Below, piece after piece: positions 1,350 to 7,781 of a stretch of 7,781 nucleotides of DNA. The stretch lies in NCBI GenBank assembly GCA_021828605.1, contig JAJZEG010000084.1:1-7781 (forward strand). Direction: 5' to 3'. The translations under genes were made by a program, and so were the position numbers. The notes beneath the pieces were generated by a model. That model had not been told where the DNA came from, did not search any database, and saw only the letters and a program-made list of their open reading frames with translations. The DNA is from Pseudomonadota bacterium. Lineage in GTDB: Bacteria > Pseudomonadota > Alphaproteobacteria > Acetobacterales > Acetobacteraceae. Within the stretch, counting starts at the first letter, position 1. The number at the start of each line of letters is the position of its first letter.

Positions 1350-2042
1350 ATGAAGAGCACCGACCTGCCCAAACTCACCCGCGATCACGCCGAAATCCTG
1401 CCGACCCTGGCGCGCAGCCGCCGGGTGCAGCTCGCCAAGCGCGTACTGCCCTTTCTCGCCGTCTTGCTGCTGGTCGCCCTGGTCGCTTTGCCTGATTTGC
1501 GCTCCGGCACCGCGTTCGGTCGCTTTACTTACCGCAAAACCAACGGCACCAGCCCGCACGGCCCGATTTCCGAGGTCAGCGGTGCGCATTATCACGGCAT
1601 CAACCGTCAGGGCGAAAAATTCTCGATCTCCGCGACCACCGCCACTCAAATCACCCAAAACCAGCTTCGCCTGCAACGCCCGCAAGGCAATATCCTGCTC
1701 AATTCCGGCGCCTGGCTGATGCTCCATGCGCGCCATGGCCTGTATCATCAGCGCAGCGGCGCCCTCGGCCTGCGCGGCGGCGTCACCCTCTATCGCGCCG
1801 ATGGCACCACCATGAAAACCCACACGGCATCGATCAATCTGCATCAAGGCACCGCCACCGGCACCGATAAAGTGCTGGCTTACGGCCCGTTCGGCACATT
1901 GCACGCCGCCCATGGTTTTTCCGTCATTAATCGCGGCGCCGCCGTGCAATTTAACGGCAAAATCCATCTCACCCTGATCGGCGCCGCCTCCCAGGCCACG
2001 CCCCAAACCACCCCGATTCAAGCCGTGAGCCCGCCGAAATGA
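1350..2042 (+). CDS. lptC: LPS export system protein LptC
   Basis: LptC is the bitopic inner-membrane member of the Lpt bridge. It receives LPS from the LptB2FG transporter and hands it to LptA in the periplasm. The 230-residue product has a basic cytoplasmic N-terminus (RSRRVQLAKR, 22-31), one hydrophobic segment (about 31-48, rich in L, V and A) and a periplasmic part predicted to be beta-rich. That part carries the 'G...I..G.F.I.A..A' pattern of the LptC/OstA fold, here HYHGINRQGEKFSISATTAT. The C-terminal tail is rich in T, P and Q. The ATG at 1350 fits the membrane topology. An earlier in-frame ATG at 1266 lies deep inside kdsD and would add 28 unrelated residues. No clear Shine-Dalgarno is seen, so translation may be coupled to kdsD. 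The stop overlaps the lptA start (ATGA, 2039-2042). Sequence conservation in this family is low, so the position before lptA carries much of the weight. Confidence 0.88.
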   Translation: MKSTDLPKLTRDHAEILPTLARSRRVQLAKRVLPFLAVLLLVALVALPDLRSGTAFGRFTYRKTNGTSPHGPISEVSGAHYHGINRQGEKFSISATTATQITQNQLRLQRPQGNILLNSGAWLMLHARHGLYHQRSGALGLRGGVTLYRADGTTMKTHTASINLHQGTATGTDKVLAYGPFGTLHAAHGFSVINRGAAVQFNGKIHLTLIGAASQATPQTTPIQAVSPPK

Positions 2043-3022
2043 GCCTCCAACGCCAGCGCCGCGCGCCGCTCACCCCCGGCTTGATCCTATTGTCACTCGC
2101 CTTGCTCGCAGCACCCGGCATCAGCCACGCGCAATCTTTGGGCTTCGGCCAAAACACCGCAGGCGCCACGCCGCAACCCATCCAAATCACCGCCTCGAAC
2201 GGGCTCGAATGGAACCAAAAAACCCGCATCATCACCGCCAACGGCAATGCCCAGGCGGTGCGCGGCAAAGTCACCATCACCGCCAATCAGCTGATCGCCC
2301 ACTACGCCGCCAATAGCACCGGCCCCGCCGCCCAACCGACCTCATCCGGTACCGATCCGCTCTCGGGCCTCGATCAGGGCCAATCCAAACTCACCCGCCT
2401 CGAAGCGGTGGGGAACGTTCATATTTTCACCGCGACCGAACAAGCCTTCGCCGATCACGCGATCTATCACATGGCCAGCGGCGAATTGGTGCTCACCGGC
2501 AACGCTCTCCGCCTGATCACCCCATCCGATACCATCACCGCCGCCCAATCCCTGCAATATTGGTCCAAGGACCGCCGCGCCGTCGCCATCGGCCACGCTC
2601 AGGTGGTGACCAAAAATCATCGCTCAATCCAGGCCGACCAACTCACCGGCTATTTTGCCGCGCGTCCCACCAGCCCAACCACCCAAACCACCGCCACATC
2701 CACAGCGGGCAAACTCCGCAAAGTCATCGCCCAAGGCCATGTCATTGTCCGCACCGCCGCCGATATCGCGACCGGCGATCACGGCGTCTATCGCCCGGCC
2801 ACCGGCATCGCGGTGCTCACCGGCAATGTCCATATCACCCAGGGGCCGAACGAGCTGGCTGGCGGTAAAGCGCAGGTCAATATGAAAACCGGCATCGCCA
2901 CCTTGCTCGCAGCCCCCGGCCATCGGGTGCAGGGTGTGGTGCTGCCCAATTCCGCGCCGCCCGCTCTTACCGCCGCACCCGCCGTCAAATCGCCGCAAAC
3001 CCCGGCAAAAACACCACCATGA
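2039..3022 (+). CDS. lptA: LPS transport periplasmic protein LptA, long form with two OstA modules
   Basis: LptA forms the periplasmic bridge that carries LPS from LptC to LptD at the outer membrane. A signal peptide is visible: a basic start (RQRR), a hydrophobic core (about 14-26) and a likely cleavage after SHA at residue 31. The mature protein shows the OstA pattern of short strands such as ITANGNAQAVRGKVTITANQL, split here by low-complexity linkers. The pattern appears twice: module 1 at about 50-162 (ending ASGELVLTGN) and module 2 at about 165-295 (ending KTGIATLL). It has 327 residues against about 185 in E. coli. The C-terminus (about 303-327) is rich in P and A. Start and stop both overlap the neighbours by ATGA, pointing to coupled translation with lptC and lptB. 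Family assignment is firm; the reading as an internal duplication is my own alignment by eye. Confidence 0.9.
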   Translation: MSLQRQRRAPLTPGLILLSLALLAAPGISHAQSLGFGQNTAGATPQPIQITASNGLEWNQKTRIITANGNAQAVRGKVTITANQLIAHYAANSTGPAAQPTSSGTDPLSGLDQGQSKLTRLEAVGNVHIFTATEQAFADHAIYHMASGELVLTGNALRLITPSDTITAAQSLQYWSKDRRAVAIGHAQVVTKNHRSIQADQLTGYFAARPTSPTTQTTATSTAGKLRKVIAQGHVIVRTAADIATGDHGVYRPATGIAVLTGNVHITQGPNELAGGKAQVNMKTGIATLLAAPGHRVQGVVLPNSAPPALTAAPAVKSPQTPAKTPP

Positions 3023-3807
3023 ACGAGACGTTGCGGGTCACCGAGGATTTTCGCGGCACGGAGGAGCACGGCGCTGGCCAGGGGGGGACTGGTCTCATCG
3101 CCACCGGCCTCGGCAAAACCTTTCGCAAGCGCGCCGTGGTGCGCAATGTCTCCCTCACCCTCCGGCGCGGCGAGGCCATCGGCCTGCTCGGCCCCAACGG
3201 TGCCGGTAAAACCACCACCTTCTATATGCTGGTCGGGCTGATCCAGGCCGATAGCGGCACCATCACCCTCGATGGCGTCGATATCTCAACGCTGCCGATG
3301 TATCGCCGCGCCCGGCTCGGCATTGGCTATCTGCCCCAGGAAGCCAGCGTGTTTCGCGGCCTCACCGTCGAGCAAAACATCGCCGCCGCCATCGAGGTCG
3401 TCGAACCCGATCGCGACCGCCGCGCCGCCTTGCTCGATGCCCTGCTCGCCGAATTCGGGATTTCCCACCTGCGCCGCACCCCCGCTTTGGCCCTGTCCGG
3501 TGGCGAGCGCCGCCGGGTGGAAATCGCTCGTGCCTTGGCCACCAACCCGCGCTATATTTTGCTCGATGAACCGCTCGCCGGGATCGACCCGATTGCCGTC
3601 AGCGAAATCCGCGACCTGGTCGCCCATCTCAAGGATCGCGGCCTCGGCGTGATCATCACCGACCATAATGTCCGCGAAACCCTCGAAATCATCGATCGCG
3701 CCTATATTCTCCACGAAGGCCAGGTCTTGATGGAAGGCGAACCCGACGTCGTCGTCGCCAATCGCGATGTCCGCCGGGTCTATCTCGGCGAACGCTTCAT
3801 TCTCTGA
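3019..3807 (+). CDS. lptB: LPS export ABC transporter ATP-binding protein LptB
   Basis: LptB is the cytoplasmic ATPase that, as a dimer bound to LptF and LptG, powers extraction of LPS from the inner membrane. The 262 residues hold all nucleotide-binding motifs: Walker A GPNGAGKTT (58-66), Q-loop Gln107 in GYLPQEAS, signature LSGGERRR (159-166), Walker B YILLDEP (179-185), D-loop AGID (187-190) and the switch histidine H216 in IITDHNV. The sequence GYLPQEASVFRGLTVEQN and the end RRVYLGERF are typical of LptB rather than of amino-acid transport ATPases such as LivF. The ATG at 3019 overlaps the lptA stop. It gives an N-terminal stretch of about 24 residues before the core (LIATGLGKTF), longer than in E. 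coli (241 residues). lptF and lptG are not in the window; they are usually encoded elsewhere. Confidence 0.96.
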   Translation: MNETLRVTEDFRGTEEHGAGQGGTGLIATGLGKTFRKRAVVRNVSLTLRRGEAIGLLGPNGAGKTTTFYMLVGLIQADSGTITLDGVDISTLPMYRRARLGIGYLPQEASVFRGLTVEQNIAAAIEVVEPDRDRRAALLDALLAEFGISHLRRTPALALSGGERRRVEIARALATNPRYILLDEPLAGIDPIAVSEIRDLVAHLKDRGLGVIITDHNVRETLEIIDRAYILHEGQVLMEGEPDVVVANRDVRRVYLGERFIL

Positions 3808-3826
3808 TTATCCCGGCCAACAGCCC

Positions 3827-3838
3827 GAGGCCCGCTTG
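3827..3838 (+). promoter_or_regulatory. Ribosome binding site and TTG start for the TauE-like permease
   Basis: GAGG at 3827-3830 lies five bases before an in-frame TTG (3836-3838), in the short gap after the lptB stop. It decides the start: it places translation just ahead of the first hydrophobic segment. The in-frame ATG at 3767 would overlap lptB by 41 bases and add 23 polar residues. Confidence 0.6.
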
Positions 3839-4654
3839 CTCCTGTCCGATCTCCTCCTCTACGCCTTAGCGGGCGCCGCCGCCGGGTTTCTCGGCGGGCT
3901 GCTGGGCATTGGCGGCGGCCTGCTGATCGTCGCCGCCCTCACCCTCACTCTGCCCGCCTCCGGCCTGACCGGCCCCGCGATTATCCATGTCGCGGTCGCC
4001 ACCGCGCTCGCCGGCATGGTGCTCACCTTCAGCGCCTCAACTTGGGCGCATTACCGCACCGGCAACATCATGGGTGCAAGCTGGGCGCGCCTCGCACCGG
4101 GCATGGTCATCGGCACAATAATCGGCACCGCGCTCGAAGGCTTAATGAGCGGCATCGTGCTCCGCCTCGCGATCACCCTGTTTTGCGCGCTCACCGCCTG
4201 GCGGATGATCGCCAGCAGCAACAAGCCCCAGCCCGATCAAACCAATATCCCCTGTTCTCTCTGGCTGTTCCCCACCGGTATCGGCATCGCCACCCTGTCC
4301 TCGATTGTCGGCATTGGCGGCGGCTCGCTCACCGTGCCGCTGTTGCTCAGCCTGCGGGTCAAGCCGGTGCGCGCGGTCGCCACCAGCGCCGCGTGCGGCC
4401 TGGTCATCGCCTGCTCCGCCGCCGCGTTAAACATGCTGATCACCCATCAAGCCAATCCAACTGCTGGCCATAGCCATCCCTGGGGCCTGATCGGCACCGT
4501 CTATCTCCCCGCCGCAATCACCGCCGCCCTCGCCTCAACCCTCACCGCGCGCTGGGGCGTGCGCGTCGCCAACCGCCTGTCCGGCCCCGCGCTCAAACGC
4601 AGTTTCGCGTTTTTTCTCCTGATCATCGGCGCGATCATCGCCTTCGGCGGCTAA
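3836..4654 (+). CDS. TauE/SafE-family membrane permease (YfcA-like)
   Basis: This is an integral membrane protein of the TauE/SafE family, whose members are linked to export of sulfite, sulfoacetate or related organic anions; the substrate here cannot be read from sequence. With the TTG start it has 272 residues, near the usual 240-280, and about eight hydrophobic segments. The two family repeats are evident: GFLGGLLGIGGG (GIGGG at 24-28) and SSIVGIGGGSLTVPLL (GIGGG at 159-163), each starting one half of the protein. A polar loop (about 127-140, rich in N, P and Q) separates the halves. It starts 28 bases after lptB, so it probably shares the lpt transcript, but nothing ties it to LPS transport. 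It could also have its own promoter or simply lie between two operons. Family confident, role unknown. Confidence 0.88.
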   Translation: MLLSDLLLYALAGAAAGFLGGLLGIGGGLLIVAALTLTLPASGLTGPAIIHVAVATALAGMVLTFSASTWAHYRTGNIMGASWARLAPGMVIGTIIGTALEGLMSGIVLRLAITLFCALTAWRMIASSNKPQPDQTNIPCSLWLFPTGIGIATLSSIVGIGGGSLTVPLLLSLRVKPVRAVATSAACGLVIACSAAALNMLITHQANPTAGHSHPWGLIGTVYLPAAITAALASTLTARWGVRVANRLSGPALKRSFAFFLLIIGAIIAFGG

Positions 4655-4736: not shown

Positions 4737-5318
4737 ATGGATATCCTCATCGCCGACACCGATCCCGCCCGCGCGCTCGCCCTCAATGCACGGCTGCTCC
4801 GTGAATTCCCCGGCGTGCGGGTGCGCATCGCCCCGCCCGAAGGCAGCCTCGCCGAACTCGCCCGTGACACCGCGCCCGATGTGATTGTCGTTGATCTCGC
4901 CCGCCCCGACCGCGACGGCCTCGATCAGATTCGCGGCCTCGCCGCAGGCCCGGCGCCGGTCATGCTGTTCATCGATGAGGACGATCCCGGCTTCATGGAA
5001 CAAGCGATCAACGCCGGGGTGATCTCCTATCATGTCGATGCCGCCTCGATCCGTGACATCAAACCGATCCTGCGCAGCGCGATTGCGCTTTATCGCCATC
5101 TCCATGCCCGCGAAACCCGGCTGCACCAGGCCGAAGCTGCCTTGCTTGATCGCCGCGCCATCGATGCCGCCAAGCGCCGCCTGATCGAGCGCGACCGAAT
5201 GAGCGAACCCGCCGCCCATCGCTTTTTGCAACGCCGCGCGATGGATCAACAAGTCAAACTCGCCGATATCGCCCGCTCTCTCCTGCAAGACCCACCCGAC
5301 ACTGACGGAACCGCCTGA
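4737..5318 (+). CDS. nasT: NasT-type ANTAR antiterminator (receiver + ANTAR)
   Basis: This cytoplasmic RNA-binding regulator of nitrate assimilation prevents premature transcription termination by binding paired hexaloop hairpins in target leaders; without nitrate/nitrite it is held by NasS. The 193 residues comprise a receiver-like domain (about 1-115, D53 at the phosphoacceptor position in VIVVDLARPDRDG) and a C-terminal ANTAR domain (about 131-186). The ANTAR domain shows the family pattern RRAIDAAKRRLIERDRMSE, then AAHRFLQRRAMDQQ and LADIARSLL. The receiver looks degenerate: the N-terminal acidic pair reads D7-T8, and where the usual lysine is expected the sequence is SYHVDA (97-102). This suits a regulator driven by partner binding rather than phosphorylation. 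The bases before the ATG hold no good Shine-Dalgarno. Its stop overlaps the nasS start (TGATG). A target RNA is visible upstream of the transporter gene. Confidence 0.92.
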   Translation: MDILIADTDPARALALNARLLREFPGVRVRIAPPEGSLAELARDTAPDVIVVDLARPDRDGLDQIRGLAAGPAPVMLFIDEDDPGFMEQAINAGVISYHVDAASIRDIKPILRSAIALYRHLHARETRLHQAEAALLDRRAIDAAKRRLIERDRMSEPAAHRFLQRRAMDQQVKLADIARSLLQDPPDTDGTA

Positions 5319-6235
5319 TGAGCCAGCCTGCCCAAATTATACGCATCGGACTGCTCCGCTTGCTCGATTCCGCGCCGGTTCTGCTCGCGGACCAGCAAGG
5401 CTATTTCACCCAAGCCGGTCTCGCCGCGACCCTTCTGCGTGAACCGTCCTGGGCCAATATCGCCGACAAGCTCGCTTACGGCCTGCTCGATGCCGCGATC
5501 ATGCCCGGCCCGCTCGCTTTGGCCATTATGCTCGGCCTGCGCGGCCGCGCCACGGCTCTGCACATCGCCGGATTATTAAGCCGCGAAGGCAACGCGGTGG
5601 TGATGGCCAACCTTGCATCCGCCAACATTGTCGTGCCCCATTGGGCCACCGTCCATATTTTTTCCAATCATACGCTCCTGCTCCGCCGGGTTTTCGCCGA
5701 ACGCGGCATCACCCCCGCCGCCATGCTGGCTTTGCCCCCCGCCGAAATGACCAACGCCCTCGCCCAAGGCCGGATCACCGGCTTTTGCGCAGGCGCACCC
5801 TGGGGCGCACACGCGGCAGCGCAGGGTGCTGGCACTATCATCGCCAGCTCCGCCAGCCTCGCCCCCAACCACCCCGAAAAATTCATTGTGCTCCGCGCCG
5901 ATTTCGCCGCTGCTCACCCGACGATCGCCGCTGCCCTGCGCGACGCTTTGTCCGCCGCCACCCTATATGGCCAACAACCCGAACAGTCTGACGCCATCGC
6001 CCATTTCCTCGCCGCACCCGACCAACTCAACCTACCGCACCCCCTCCTCGCCGCCGCTCTGCGCTCCGGCCAAGGCAACCCCATTTTCATGACCGGCGTT
6101 GATGTGCGTCCTCACGCGGATGAGTGGGCGAATGATTGGCACTGGACCATCACCCAAATGCAGCACGCCGCCCAATTTTCCACCGCCCAAGCCGCGCAGG
6201 CTCGGCGCCTGATCCTGACTAACGACAAAAAATAA
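5318..6235 (+). CDS. nasS: NasS-type nitrate/nitrite sensor (NrtA-like, cytoplasmic)
   Basis: This protein resembles the periplasmic nitrate-binding component NrtA/CmpA but begins MSQPAQIIRIGLLRLLDSAP, with no signal peptide. That marks it as the cytoplasmic sensor NasS, which sequesters NasT and releases it when nitrate or nitrite binds. Family features are the opening strand IRIGLLRLLDSAPVLLADQQGYF split across residues 8-30, REPSWANIADKLAYG (41-55), LLDAAIMPGPL (56-66) and the C-terminal DEWANDWHWTITQM region. It has 305 residues, shorter than many NasS/NrtA relatives, with no frameshift or internal stop seen. The start ATG shares one base with the nasT stop, which implies translational coupling and roughly balanced amounts of the two partners. 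An alternative reading as an ABC transporter binding protein is unlikely, because no permease or ATPase gene is adjacent and nasT is. Confidence 0.9.
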   Translation: MSQPAQIIRIGLLRLLDSAPVLLADQQGYFTQAGLAATLLREPSWANIADKLAYGLLDAAIMPGPLALAIMLGLRGRATALHIAGLLSREGNAVVMANLASANIVVPHWATVHIFSNHTLLLRRVFAERGITPAAMLALPPAEMTNALAQGRITGFCAGAPWGAHAAAQGAGTIIASSASLAPNHPEKFIVLRADFAAAHPTIAAALRDALSAATLYGQQPEQSDAIAHFLAAPDQLNLPHPLLAAALRSGQGNPIFMTGVDVRPHADEWANDWHWTITQMQHAAQFSTAQAAQARRLILTNDKK

Positions 6236-6329
6236 TCAGTTGAATAATAAATAGGCACATAATGCGTATCATAAATCCACTCTACCAAATTTCACGATAA
6301 AACGCCCTATTTTACATCACAATCTAGTT
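6236..6329 (+). other. AT-rich non-coding stretch upstream of the transporter promoter
   Basis: I count 29 G or C in the 90 bases from 6241 to 6330 (about 32%), against a strongly GC-rich coding background. No ORF, no clear Rho-independent terminator after nasS and no convincing sigma-70 promoter are seen. The position directly upstream of a sigma-54 site suits an enhancer or DNA-bending region (NtrC, IHF). I could not find a full-consensus site for either; GGCAC at 6254-6258 is at most a half-site. Confidence 0.6.
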
Positions 6330-6345
6330 TGGCACTCTCTTTGCT
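6330..6345 (+). promoter_or_regulatory. Sigma-54 (-24/-12) promoter for the nitrate transporter operon
   Basis: TGGCACTCTCTTTGCT matches TGGCACG-N4-TTGCW at every fixed base except the seventh (T for G). The invariant GG (6331-6332) and GC (6343-6344) are exactly ten bases apart. The predicted transcript start is near 6356, which places both ANTAR-type hairpins entirely within the leader RNA. It sits next to an AT-rich upstream region. Control by sigma-54 and NtrC is the known mode for nitrate assimilation genes in several proteobacteria. Confidence 0.78.
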
Positions 6346-6372
6346 TAACTCATGCTGCACCGCAACGTGCCC

Positions 6373-6396
6373 GCACCCGCCAATGACGGCGCGTGC
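6373..6396 (+). promoter_or_regulatory. ANTAR hairpin P1, hexaloop AATGAC
   Basis: Four pairs close the loop (CGCC 6378-6381 with GGCG 6388-6391). A single C-C mismatch (6377/6392) is followed by four more pairs (GCAC 6373-6376 with GTGC 6393-6396). The loop 6382-6387 reads AATGAC, with A1 and G4 as required for ANTAR recognition. Confidence 0.75.
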
Positions 6397-6419
6397 AGAG
6401 CTGACTGAGATGTGAAATC

Positions 6420-6438
6420 GCGCGCCAATGAGGGCCGT
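6420..6438 (+). promoter_or_regulatory. ANTAR hairpin P2, hexaloop AATGAG
   Basis: Three pairs close the loop (GCC 6424-6426 with GGC 6433-6435). After a bulged C at 6423, further pairs G22-C36, C21-G37 and G20-U38 (last two digits of 64xx positions) extend the stem. The loop 6427-6432 reads AATGAG, sharing AATGA with P1 and again having A1 and G4. Confidence 0.68.
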
Positions 6439-6441
6439 CAT

Positions 6442-6456
6442 GCGGGATTATCCCGC
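6442..6456 (+). terminator. GC-rich leader hairpin, putative regulated terminator without U-tract
   Basis: GCGGGA and TCCCGC form a perfect six-pair stem around a TTA loop, starting three bases after P2. Its position is where the leader terminator of ANTAR-controlled operons is expected. However, it is followed by CGGAGTCC rather than a run of T, so intrinsic termination would be weak. It may instead pause the polymerase, act with Rho, or limit ribosome access to the Shine-Dalgarno that begins two bases later. Confidence 0.4.
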
Positions 6457-6457
6457 C

Positions 6458-6461
6458 GGAG
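6458..6461 (+). promoter_or_regulatory. Ribosome binding site deciding the transporter start
   Basis: GGAG lies seven bases before the ATG at 6469. It supports that start over the upstream in-frame GTG at 6412. The GTG lies between the two ANTAR hairpins, lacks a Shine-Dalgarno, and would make the RNA element part of the coding sequence. Confidence 0.75.
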
Positions 6462-6468
6462 TCCGCCG

Positions 6469-7698
6469 ATGCGTTCATCCTCAGCGCCCTCATTCCTGAA
6501 ATCCGGCCACTGGCCCACCTTGCTCGCTGCCTTCCTGTATTTCGATATGAGCTTCATGATCTGGGTGCTGCTCGGCCCGCTCGCCGTGCAAATCGGTCAC
6601 GCTCTGCATCTCAGCGCCGCGCAAAAAGGCCTGATGATCGCGCTGCCGGTGCTCTCCGGCGCTTTGCTGCGCATCCCTGCGGGCTTTGCGGTTGATCAAG
6701 TCGGCGCGCGCGCCACCGCCATTATCGGCCAAATCATCCTGATCGCGGGTCTCGCTTATGGCTGGTTCGCGGGCATCAAGTCCTACCCCGAAATCCTCGC
6801 TCTCGGCCTCATTCTCGGCCTCGGCGGCGCGTCATTCGCCGTCGCTTTGCCGCTCGCCTCGCGCTGGTATCCGCCGCAGCATCAAGGCACCGCGCTCGGC
6901 ATTGCCGGTGCAGGCAATATCGGCACCGTGGTCACCGCCCTCGCGGCGCCCTCGCTCGCCATCGCCCTCGGCCTTGGCGGCGTGTTTGGCATCGCCGCTT
7001 TGGCCATGATCGCCACCCTGATCGTCTTCGCGCTGCTGGCGAAAAACCCGCCGCTTTACAAGTTCCCGCAACCGGTCACCGATTTTTTCAAAATCCTGCG
7101 CATCGCCGATGTCTGGTGGTTCATGGGGTTCTACGGCGTCACCTTTGGCGGCTTCGTCGGCCTGTCCGCCGCTCTCACCCTTTATTTCCATAGCGTCTAT
7201 GGGTTGAGCGCGGTCCATGCCGGTTTCGCCACCGCCGCCTGCGCCTTTGTCGGCGGCTCAATCCGCCCGTTCGGGGGCTATCTTGCTGATCGTCTCGGCG
7301 GGGTGCGCGTGCTGGGCGCGCTCTATCTCGCCGCGAGCGCCTGCCTGATCGTGTTGAGCCTCGGTATTGGCGGGTTCTGGCCCGCTTTCGCGGTCTTTAT
7401 CCTGGTGATGGCCGCCTTCGGCATGGGCGATGGCGCGGTGTTCCAGCTGATCCCCGCCCGCTTTGGCCGCGAAATTGGCACCGCCACTGGCTTTGTCGGC
7501 ATGGCGGGCGGCGTCGGCGGTTTTTATCTCGCCTCCAGCCTCGGCGTCTCCAAACAACTCACCGGCAGCTACAGCGCCGGATTCCTGATTTTCGCCGGTC
7601 TCGCTCTGCTCGCCTTCACCGGCCTCGCCATCGTGCGCCGCCGCTGGCGCGCCGATTTCACCGAAGCCAACCCGACCGAATCCGCCATTCGCATTTGA
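6469..7698 (+). CDS. nasA: NarK/NasA-type nitrate/nitrite transporter (MFS)
   Basis: This inner-membrane major facilitator protein of the nitrate/nitrite porter family brings nitrate and/or nitrite into the cytoplasm for assimilation. The 409 residues form about 12 hydrophobic segments. Family marks include an arginine in TM2 (R68 in GALLRIPAG) and one in TM8 (R266 in GGSIRPFGG), corresponding to the two substrate-binding arginines of NarK. Also present are SRWYPPQHQGTALGIAG (131-147), the nitrate-signature stretch GAGNIGTV (147-154) and the second signature FVGMAGGVGGF (342-352). The MFS loop motif YLADRLGG (271-278) is present too. The start at 6469 has a good Shine-Dalgarno and gives a short cytoplasmic N-terminus. 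The gene follows nasTS and a sigma-54/ANTAR leader and directly precedes nirB, so assimilation rather than respiration is the likely role. Whether nitrate, nitrite or both are carried is not decided by sequence. The symbol nasA follows Paracoccus usage; narK is equally used. Confidence 0.92.
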   Translation: MRSSSAPSFLKSGHWPTLLAAFLYFDMSFMIWVLLGPLAVQIGHALHLSAAQKGLMIALPVLSGALLRIPAGFAVDQVGARATAIIGQIILIAGLAYGWFAGIKSYPEILALGLILGLGGASFAVALPLASRWYPPQHQGTALGIAGAGNIGTVVTALAAPSLAIALGLGGVFGIAALAMIATLIVFALLAKNPPLYKFPQPVTDFFKILRIADVWWFMGFYGVTFGGFVGLSAALTLYFHSVYGLSAVHAGFATAACAFVGGSIRPFGGYLADRLGGVRVLGALYLAASACLIVLSLGIGGFWPAFAVFILVMAAFGMGDGAVFQLIPARFGREIGTATGFVGMAGGVGGFYLASSLGVSKQLTGSYSAGFLIFAGLALLAFTGLAIVRRRWRADFTEANPTESAIRI

Positions 7699-7709: not shown

Positions 7710-7781
7710 ATGGACGGTTTCACTGCCCCACGCCCCCGCCTCGTCGTTGTCGGCAACGGCATGGCGGGCATGCGCACAGTC
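7710..7781 (+). CDS. nirB: NAD(P)H nitrite reductase large subunit, 5' end (partial)
   Basis: Only the first 24 codons are present; the gene runs off the right edge. After MDGFTAPRPR the sequence reads LVVVGNGMAGMRTV, the FAD-binding GxGxxG fold that opens NirB/NasB, the siroheme and iron-sulfur enzyme that reduces nitrite to ammonium in the cytoplasm. The gap to the transporter stop is 11 bases, so the two genes are co-transcribed, and the context (nasT, nasS, transporter) agrees. The same motif opens other FAD/NAD-linked reductases, for example the NADH-oxidising subunit of assimilatory nitrate reductase. The call therefore rests on the NGMAGMRT variant plus the neighbourhood. Confidence 0.82.
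   Translation, partial: MDGFTAPRPRLVVVGNGMAGMRTV

Follow-up and report, generated by a model that had tools for sequence, protein, structure and literature searches.

Is the leader between nasS and a narK-type transporter gene in this locus the RNA target of the NasT protein encoded just upstream and, if so, how might binding of NasT be conveyed to the transporter gene? The window, by which we mean the whole stretch of 7,781 nucleotides analyzed here, holds the following genes:

320-1339: SIS/CBS-domain protein, in a run of cell-envelope genes
1266-2042: LptC, in the same run
2039-3022: LptA, in the same run
3019-3807: ABC ATPase, in the same run
3767-4654: TauE/SafE permease
4737-5318, plus strand: nasT, with a receiver-like and an ANTAR RNA-binding domain (Pfam ANTAR, 53.4 bits)
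5318-6235, plus strand: nasS, an NrtA/CmpA-like nitrate-binding partner of 305 aa (Pfam NMT1_2, 162.7 bits)
6469-7698, plus strand: narK-type nitrate/nitrite transporter of the MFS (ATG at 6469; TIGR00886, 251 bits; Pfam MFS_1, 131.9 bits)
7710-7781, plus strand: start of a nirB-like gene that runs off the window (from a reading of the translation)

The order nasT-nasS-narK-nirB agrees with the sequence-only reading of this DNA, which had placed nasT and nasS ahead of its element and a nitrate transporter behind it. The ANTAR domain of NasT is complete (its score compares with a Pfam cut-off of 27.3, and model positions 2-54 of 54 are covered), and the nearest solved relatives of the protein in the PDB are 1s8n (a putative antiterminator), 6wsh and AmiR (1qo0). 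NasS resembles nitrate/bicarbonate binding proteins in the PDB, with E values to 2.9e-30, and the transporter is NarK-like, its score on TIGR00886 lying under the family cut-off of 311.7. The end of nasT is 1.05 kb upstream of the first hairpin described below, and an ANTAR protein is thus encoded in the same genome as its candidate target.

Of the genomes found, those nearest to the window come from the genus that includes Acidiphilium multivorum (13 genomes). NasT is present in seven of these at 58-66% identity, and NarK occurs in the same seven at 61-82% identity (one match partial); the annotation of Acidiphilium multivorum gives the order transporter-nirB-nirD. On plasmid pACMV1 of that species, an IS110-type element splits nasS, between nasT and a conserved narK leader (L106 1967-4235, equal to NC_015178.1 177350-179618; also L045). 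With nasS split, the NasT of Acidiphilium multivorum may lack its nitrate-sensing partner.

The gap between nasS and narK in the window is 233 bases, and the features assigned there are as follows:

6330-6344, plus strand: sigma-54 promoter TGGCACTCTCTTTGC, from the sequence and a TGGCA-N8-GC pattern in relatives
6373-6396, plus strand: hairpin P1, with the loop AATGAC at 6382-6387, from its fold and covariation in 22 relatives
6397-6419, plus strand: linker of 23 nt, without the hairpin M of relatives
6418-6445, plus strand: extended P2 (P2x), in which 6418-6422 pairs with 6441-6445; it excludes P3
6424-6435, plus strand: core of hairpin P2, with the loop AATGAG at 6427-6432 and a C-G closing pair kept in relatives
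6442-6456, plus strand: hairpin P3, GCGGGA-TTA-TCCCGC (z -3.09), with covariation in seven aligned leaders
6458-6461, plus strand: Shine-Dalgarno sequence GGAG, 7 nt before the start codon

The promoter site reads TGGCAC-N5-TTGC, and the TGGCA-N8-GC pattern lies upstream of P1 in 19 of 24 narK leaders, the window included, bearing out the earlier placement of the element downstream of a sigma-54 promoter and upstream of a transporter. Only 15 of the 45 elements found later have a sigma-54-like site (looser pattern), and the promoter therefore does not belong to the constant parts of the element. A sigma-70 scan of 6100-6700 returned just two weak sigma-70-like sites, both on the other strand. 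By eye, TAGGCA/TGCCTA half-sites and dyads recur upstream of the sigma-54 site, at about 6250-6275 in the window and in several relatives, with a clear palindrome in L051; these are possibly the binding site of an enhancer-binding protein.

The two hexaloop hairpins are confirmed in the window as they had been described. P1 is GCAC-C-CGCC[AATGAC]GGCG-C-GTGC, a stem of eight pairs with one C-C mismatch, exactly the stem that had been claimed for it, and the P2 core is GCC[AATGAG]GGC; both loops, their GCC/GGC closures and their positions are as first reported. The 23 bases of the linker separate the 3' arm of P1 from base 6420, and the loop-to-loop distance is 45 nt. On its own P1 folds well (-13.9 kcal/mol, z -2.4), and the P2 region on its own folds poorly (z +0.95). 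Two alternative pairings were seen in the window: 6383-6390 with 6434-6441, and 6427-6435 with 6486-6494. In the second, AATGAGGGC (6427-6435, the loop and 3' arm of P2) is perfectly complementary to nine bases of narK coding sequence. No counterpart of either was noticed in relatives, and the two pairings play no part in the interpretation.

Among 1000 dinucleotide shuffles of the window leader, 2.3% held any qualifying pair of A..G.. hexaloops (three closing pairs each, 40-70 nt apart), and 0.1% held a pair with AANGR loops. Applied mechanically to the 24 narK leaders, the same rule is met by 20 (0.66 expected from shuffles), and 19 have AANGR loops (0.02 expected).

To these counts, comparison of the leaders read from 22 narK relatives adds evidence from substitutions; L107, having no P1 at the expected distance, was left out of the 23-leader counts and of the model described below. 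The sequence of P1 varies freely while its pairing is kept, with 84.8% of cells paired and double-sided changes in eight of nine pairs in the 22 relatives. The covariation score over P1, M and P2 is 0.473 against 0.209 when shuffled and at most 0.216 for slid versions, and 0 of 500 shuffles reach it. Compensatory changes had been proposed as a check on both stems: P1 bears this out, whereas in P2 the closing C-G pair, like that of P1, is invariant (22 of 22 relatives), the three core pairs and position 7 alone are firm, and positions 4-6 pair in about half of the 23 leaders. Because loops were chosen by the A..G.. rule and inspection, the constancy of A1 and G4 in these first 23 leaders is partly a matter of choice.

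A covariance model built from the 22 relatives, with the window left out, matches the window at 6372-6444 with 45.2 bits (E 3.4e-7), the next match in the window reaching 13.6 bits. It matches 24 of 25 whole genomes at E 0.5; the best genome match sits in the nas region wherever inspected, and second matches per genome have E 0.17 or worse. Among the 45 elements that the model found beyond its training rows, all 90 loops have A1 and 89 of the 90 have G4 (179 of 180 letters, the model itself favoring these letters), in keeping with the earlier expectation that both would be fixed in relatives; the sole exception is G4 in P1 of L161. One of these 45, L148, equals training row L045, and further near-duplicates are L147 and L149, close to L109, and the close pairs L043/L105 and L002/L054. 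Among 48 model matches, L059, L077 and L107 (weak, 18-20 bits, none of them a training row) and L106 (the same as L045) are not in the 45. The proposed search with the ANTAR family of Rfam came out negative, with nothing relevant from Rfam 15 matching the window at E values up to 10.

Based on the loops, the covariation and the ANTAR protein in the genome, we assign the leader as a predicted ANTAR target RNA. Its attribution to NasT draws further on co-occurrence. A search of the 299 genomes in the family to which G002 (a Rhodopila MAG) belongs gave NasT in 94 at E 1e-20 and the element in 48 at E 0.02: in 42 of the 94 genomes with NasT and in six of the 205 without (Fisher p 9e-19, relatedness ignored). 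Without the 18 training genomes, the element is found in 24 of 76 genomes with NasT and again in six of 205 without (p 1.8e-10, relatedness ignored). Missed elements are expected in this set because the search of the 299 genomes uses stricter filters, and 52 of the 94 NasT genomes have no model match at E 0.02. The six elements in genomes without NasT at E 1e-20 are L146, L148, L161, L163, L164 and L165 (G031, G086, G202, G181, G023 and G283); incomplete assemblies, a weaker NasT or chance matches among low scorers are possible reasons.

The genes behind the elements point the same way. Elements away from nasT precede narK, nirB (L153, L154, L155, L159 and L162) or, once, a cobA-like gene, as named from translations, and another group has the element between nasT and a following nasS/nrtA-like gene, so that the identified target genes all belong to nitrate/nitrite assimilation. 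L163 and L166 have no clear target gene, and four matches beside nasT (G124, G175, G243 and G290) among the 48 genome matches were left unread. The cobA-like gene, for siroheme synthesis, directly follows a model match of 39.8 bits (L160, in G067), which suggests that NasT may also control siroheme synthesis in trans.

Could the hairpins nevertheless be a chance occurrence, or serve another factor, with NasT not binding them? The six genomes with an element and no NasT, the 52 with NasT and no match, and a window P2 of just three core pairs in a region that folds poorly alone all lean that way. Against this stand the shuffles, the covariation, the match of the model built without the window, the co-occurrence with NasT and the restriction of nameable target genes to nitrate assimilation, and we consider such an explanation very improbable. 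The leader is very probably a target of NasT, as had been proposed, a prediction supported by the conserved loops, the covariation and the co-occurrence with nasT as well as by the shuffles and the model match.

The spacing of the two hairpins varies. Loop-to-loop distances in relatives are bimodal (40-48 nt or 54-72 nt), and the window belongs to the short mode. Between P1 and P2, 20 of 22 narK relatives have a GC-rich hairpin, M (from a reading of folds), with double-sided changes in three of five pairs; the linker of the 22 relatives has a mean folding z of -1.19, against +0.30 for the window linker at 6397-6419, in which no M was found. According to the parts of PMC3369931 that treat the EutV eut leaders, natural linkers there are 5-12 nt and one of 14 nt cripples induction, so the Acetobacteraceae element apparently tolerates other spacing; the 23-nt linker of the window is outside this Enterococcus faecalis range and within the actinobacterial range of 2-25 nt. 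How the hairpins would act on narK depends on what follows P2.

ANTAR proteins are textbook antiterminators. We scanned each leader, beginning at P2 and continuing 60 bases into the gene, for a perfect stem of at least five pairs with a loop of 3-8 and then five T in eight; the 60-leader set leaves out L056, L057, L064, L093, L147, L148, L163 and L166. This simple scan found a canonical terminator in none of the 60 leaders, and within 6100-6700 of the window no terminator overlaps P2 or lies elsewhere. What follows P2 in the window is P3, which ends one base before the Shine-Dalgarno GGAG. P3 could be scored in 48 of the 60 leaders, seven having a short spacer and five no recognized Shine-Dalgarno sequence. 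The spacer after P2 is more stably folded than shuffled versions of it (mean z -1.78, 48 leaders), and P3 ends within 3 nt of the Shine-Dalgarno sequence in 43 of the 48, the window included (27.8 expected, relatedness ignored); with an energy of at most -6, the same placement is found in 42 of the 48 (13.3 expected). By type, this close placement holds for 26 of 27 narK, 16 of 16 nasS-type and one of five nirB leaders, and in four of the five nirB-type leaders P3 ends 5 nt away.

P3 is 98% paired in seven aligned leaders of the clade, the window included, and its covariation score is reached by 0 of 500 shuffles; double-sided changes occur in five of seven pairs (14 of 500 shuffles reach this), and P3 does not exceed the shuffles in its number of pair types (362 of 500), all these P values treating related leaders as independent. 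At the level of leader sequences, the comparisons establish that P1, P2 and P3 exist and are conserved. The sequence-only reading offered no downstream mechanism and had missed both P3 at the Shine-Dalgarno sequence and the absence of a terminator.

P3 shares bases with the extended form of P2, and the two are mutually exclusive. All seven aligned clade leaders keep P2x, although one of its five pairs is gapped in two of them; the changes in P2x are one-sided only. In the window, the P2 core with P3 is favored when no protein is present (-12.7 against -6.4 kcal/mol for P2x), and NasT binding could tip this balance towards P2x. Our best explanation, in which we have slightly more than even confidence, is that NasT-driven formation of P2x opens P3 and frees the Shine-Dalgarno sequence for translation of narK. 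Nitrogen shortage would start transcription at the sigma-54 promoter, as expected from the site. On sensing nitrate, NasS would release NasT, as shown in Paracoccus, and NasT would then grip the loops of P1 and P2, as the conserved loops, the covariation and the co-occurrence with nasT suggest. This would favor extended P2, the 3' strand of which is the 5' strand of P3; P3 would open, the adjoining Shine-Dalgarno sequence would be cleared and narK, followed by nirB, would be translated. With no nitrate, P3 would form and hinder ribosome loading. We infer both the switch itself and its level, that is, translation and not transcription.

The same exclusion of P3 by P2x would fit transcription attenuation equally well, in which P3 or a surrounding P2-arm hairpin stops the polymerase (with Rho, or without a U-run) and NasT at P1 and P2 prevents this. 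EutV and NasR are known to act by antitermination, and passages of PMC6759348 report the same of NasT on Bradyrhizobium nosR; NasT antitermination is proposed in Paracoccus, where transcriptional fusions of the Paracoccus denitrificans nasA leader respond to hairpin changes (both in parts of PMC5424462). By eye, that leader too lacks a U-run after its hairpins, and the systems described in PMC3369931 have the classical arrangement, in which P2 overlaps an exclusive hairpin downstream. However, the scan found a perfect hairpin with a U-run in none of the 60 leaders, P3 ends at the Shine-Dalgarno sequence and not before a U-run, and in seven narK leaders the start codon follows the P2 loop by only 26-32 nt, which leaves little room for a separate terminator. 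We regard attenuation as the less likely of the two.

An effect of P2 on ribosome access was also sought in the leaders directly, with results that differ by leader type. Complementarity between the ribosome-binding site and the P2 loop with its 3' arm is seen in nasS-type leaders (18 leaders, mean z -1.27, p 1e-4) and also in nirB-type leaders (five closely related ones, mean z -2.0, p 0.049). For the 33 narK leaders, the complementarity of the P2 arm to this site does not exceed that of shuffles (mean z -0.31, p 0.14); it is below chance in the window (z +1.49), where the site is abutted by P3, and likewise before the cobA-like gene (z +1.55). When P2 arm and ribosome-binding site were compared in an exchange test, p was 0.019 in 15 nasS-type leaders (control segments, p 0.57 and 0.95) and 0.16 in narK leaders, while the coding-sequence control there gave p 0.001. 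These results support, as a prediction, a direct pairing between the P2 arm and the ribosome-binding site in nasS- and nirB-type leaders and do not support it in narK leaders.

When P2 is favored in silico, the initiation region becomes more open in 15 of 18 nasS-type leaders (p 0.004), and the Shine-Dalgarno sequence itself is not opened in these (5 up and 6 down of 16, p 0.78). Openness in narK-type leaders responds weakly to switching P2 on or off (p 0.13-0.16); in the window, favoring P2 raises that of the Shine-Dalgarno sequence from 0.13 to 0.49 and that of the whole initiation region from 0.41 to 0.44. We therefore rate control of ribosome access as about an even chance and prefer it to antitermination, with attenuation in second place.

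Two narK leaders, L108 and L109 (Acetobacter and Komagataeibacter), have a strong hairpin around the Shine-Dalgarno sequence (GTTTCCGT/ACGGAGAC in L108), which stays paired regardless of P2. The 3' arm of their P2 is a near copy of the 5' strand of this hairpin, so that two anti-Shine-Dalgarno copies would compete; the TGGCA-N8-GC pattern was not found upstream of narK in either. A three-way junction seen in Acidiphilium-type folds, joining the 5' flank of P2 to the interval between the Shine-Dalgarno sequence and the start codon, was rejected for the window, which has no partner sequence.

The position of P2, 26-32 nt from the start codon in the seven narK relatives, also brings to mind repression, in which NasT bound near the ribosome-binding site would block ribosomes, by analogy with mycobacterial ANTAR targets; repression at such sites is reported in work cited in PMC8164766. 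This would run contrary to Paracoccus, in which, according to parts of PMC3795266, the nas genes need NasT as a positive regulator, and NasT freed by nitrate would shut nitrate uptake when nitrate is present. Moreover, P3 intervenes between P2 and the ribosome-binding site in 43 leaders, the window among them. We regard repression as improbable.

The dual hexaloop motif and its A1/G4 rule were described by Ramesh 2012 (PMC3369931), which in the portions relevant here also suggests that motif matches lacking a terminator may act on translation, and NasS-NasT nitrate sensing, with binding of NasT to the nasA leader RNA, is shown in Paracoccus in parts of PMC3795266. Judged by its sequence, the element is an Acetobacteraceae type of ANTAR target RNA, a variant form of the known motif. 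With the EutV eut, NasR nasF and AmiR amiE leaders as presented in PMC3369931 it has in common two six-base-loop hairpins with A1 and G4 fixed and conserved closing pairs, placement in a nitrogen-gene leader, an ANTAR protein in the genome and a P2 that overlaps a further, exclusive hairpin. It differs in that a U-run terminator follows there, whereas here the hairpin touches the Shine-Dalgarno sequence, and the Enterococcus linkers of 5-12 nt compare with 23 nt in the window and with loop-to-loop distances of 40-48 or 54-72 nt in relatives.

With the NasS-NasT systems of Paracoccus nasA and Bradyrhizobium nosR, the locus shares the regulator pair, the kind of target gene and leader hairpins, as far as these are covered in sections of PMC3795266, PMC5424462 and PMC6759348. 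In our reading of an unannotated stretch, the Paracoccus leader differs in that its two candidate loops, separated by 25 nt, lie about 155 and 130 nt upstream of nasA, and our covariance model (R1) does not match it at E 1. The actinobacterial and mycobacterial ANTAR RNAs, as represented in parts of PMC8164766, resemble the element in a motif at or near the ribosome-binding site, few terminators and translation control (here as we propose); there the protein represses and the site is inside the motif, whereas here activation would be expected and a separate P3 lies between.

A further likeness is to an engineered system. The NmPAL photoreceptor is an ANTAR protein. In the NmPAL riboptoregulator, as outlined in portions of PMC11381354, protein binding relieves a blocked Shine-Dalgarno sequence, as we propose here, although that device is synthetic, light-driven and has one aptamer, whereas the present leader is natural. 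In the open-access literature, queries by Acetobacter and Acidiphilium returned no paper on an Acetobacteraceae ANTAR target, and no paper was found on natural ANTAR-driven translational activation. We tentatively propose, at a little short of an even chance, that the leader represents a natural ANTAR switch turning translation on, with the same three-hairpin plan across the Acetobacteraceae before narK, nasS/nrtA-like genes and nirB (there with P3 slightly further off), and with the optional M giving distances of 40-48 or 54-72 nt.

If this is true, the same ANTAR protein-RNA module can be wired to translation, activating it and not repressing it, and the short-linker rule derived from EutV would be relaxed by the Acetobacteraceae elements. 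The covariance model also offers a searchable description of NasT regulons in acetic acid and acidophilic bacteria, where Rfam 15 gave no match.
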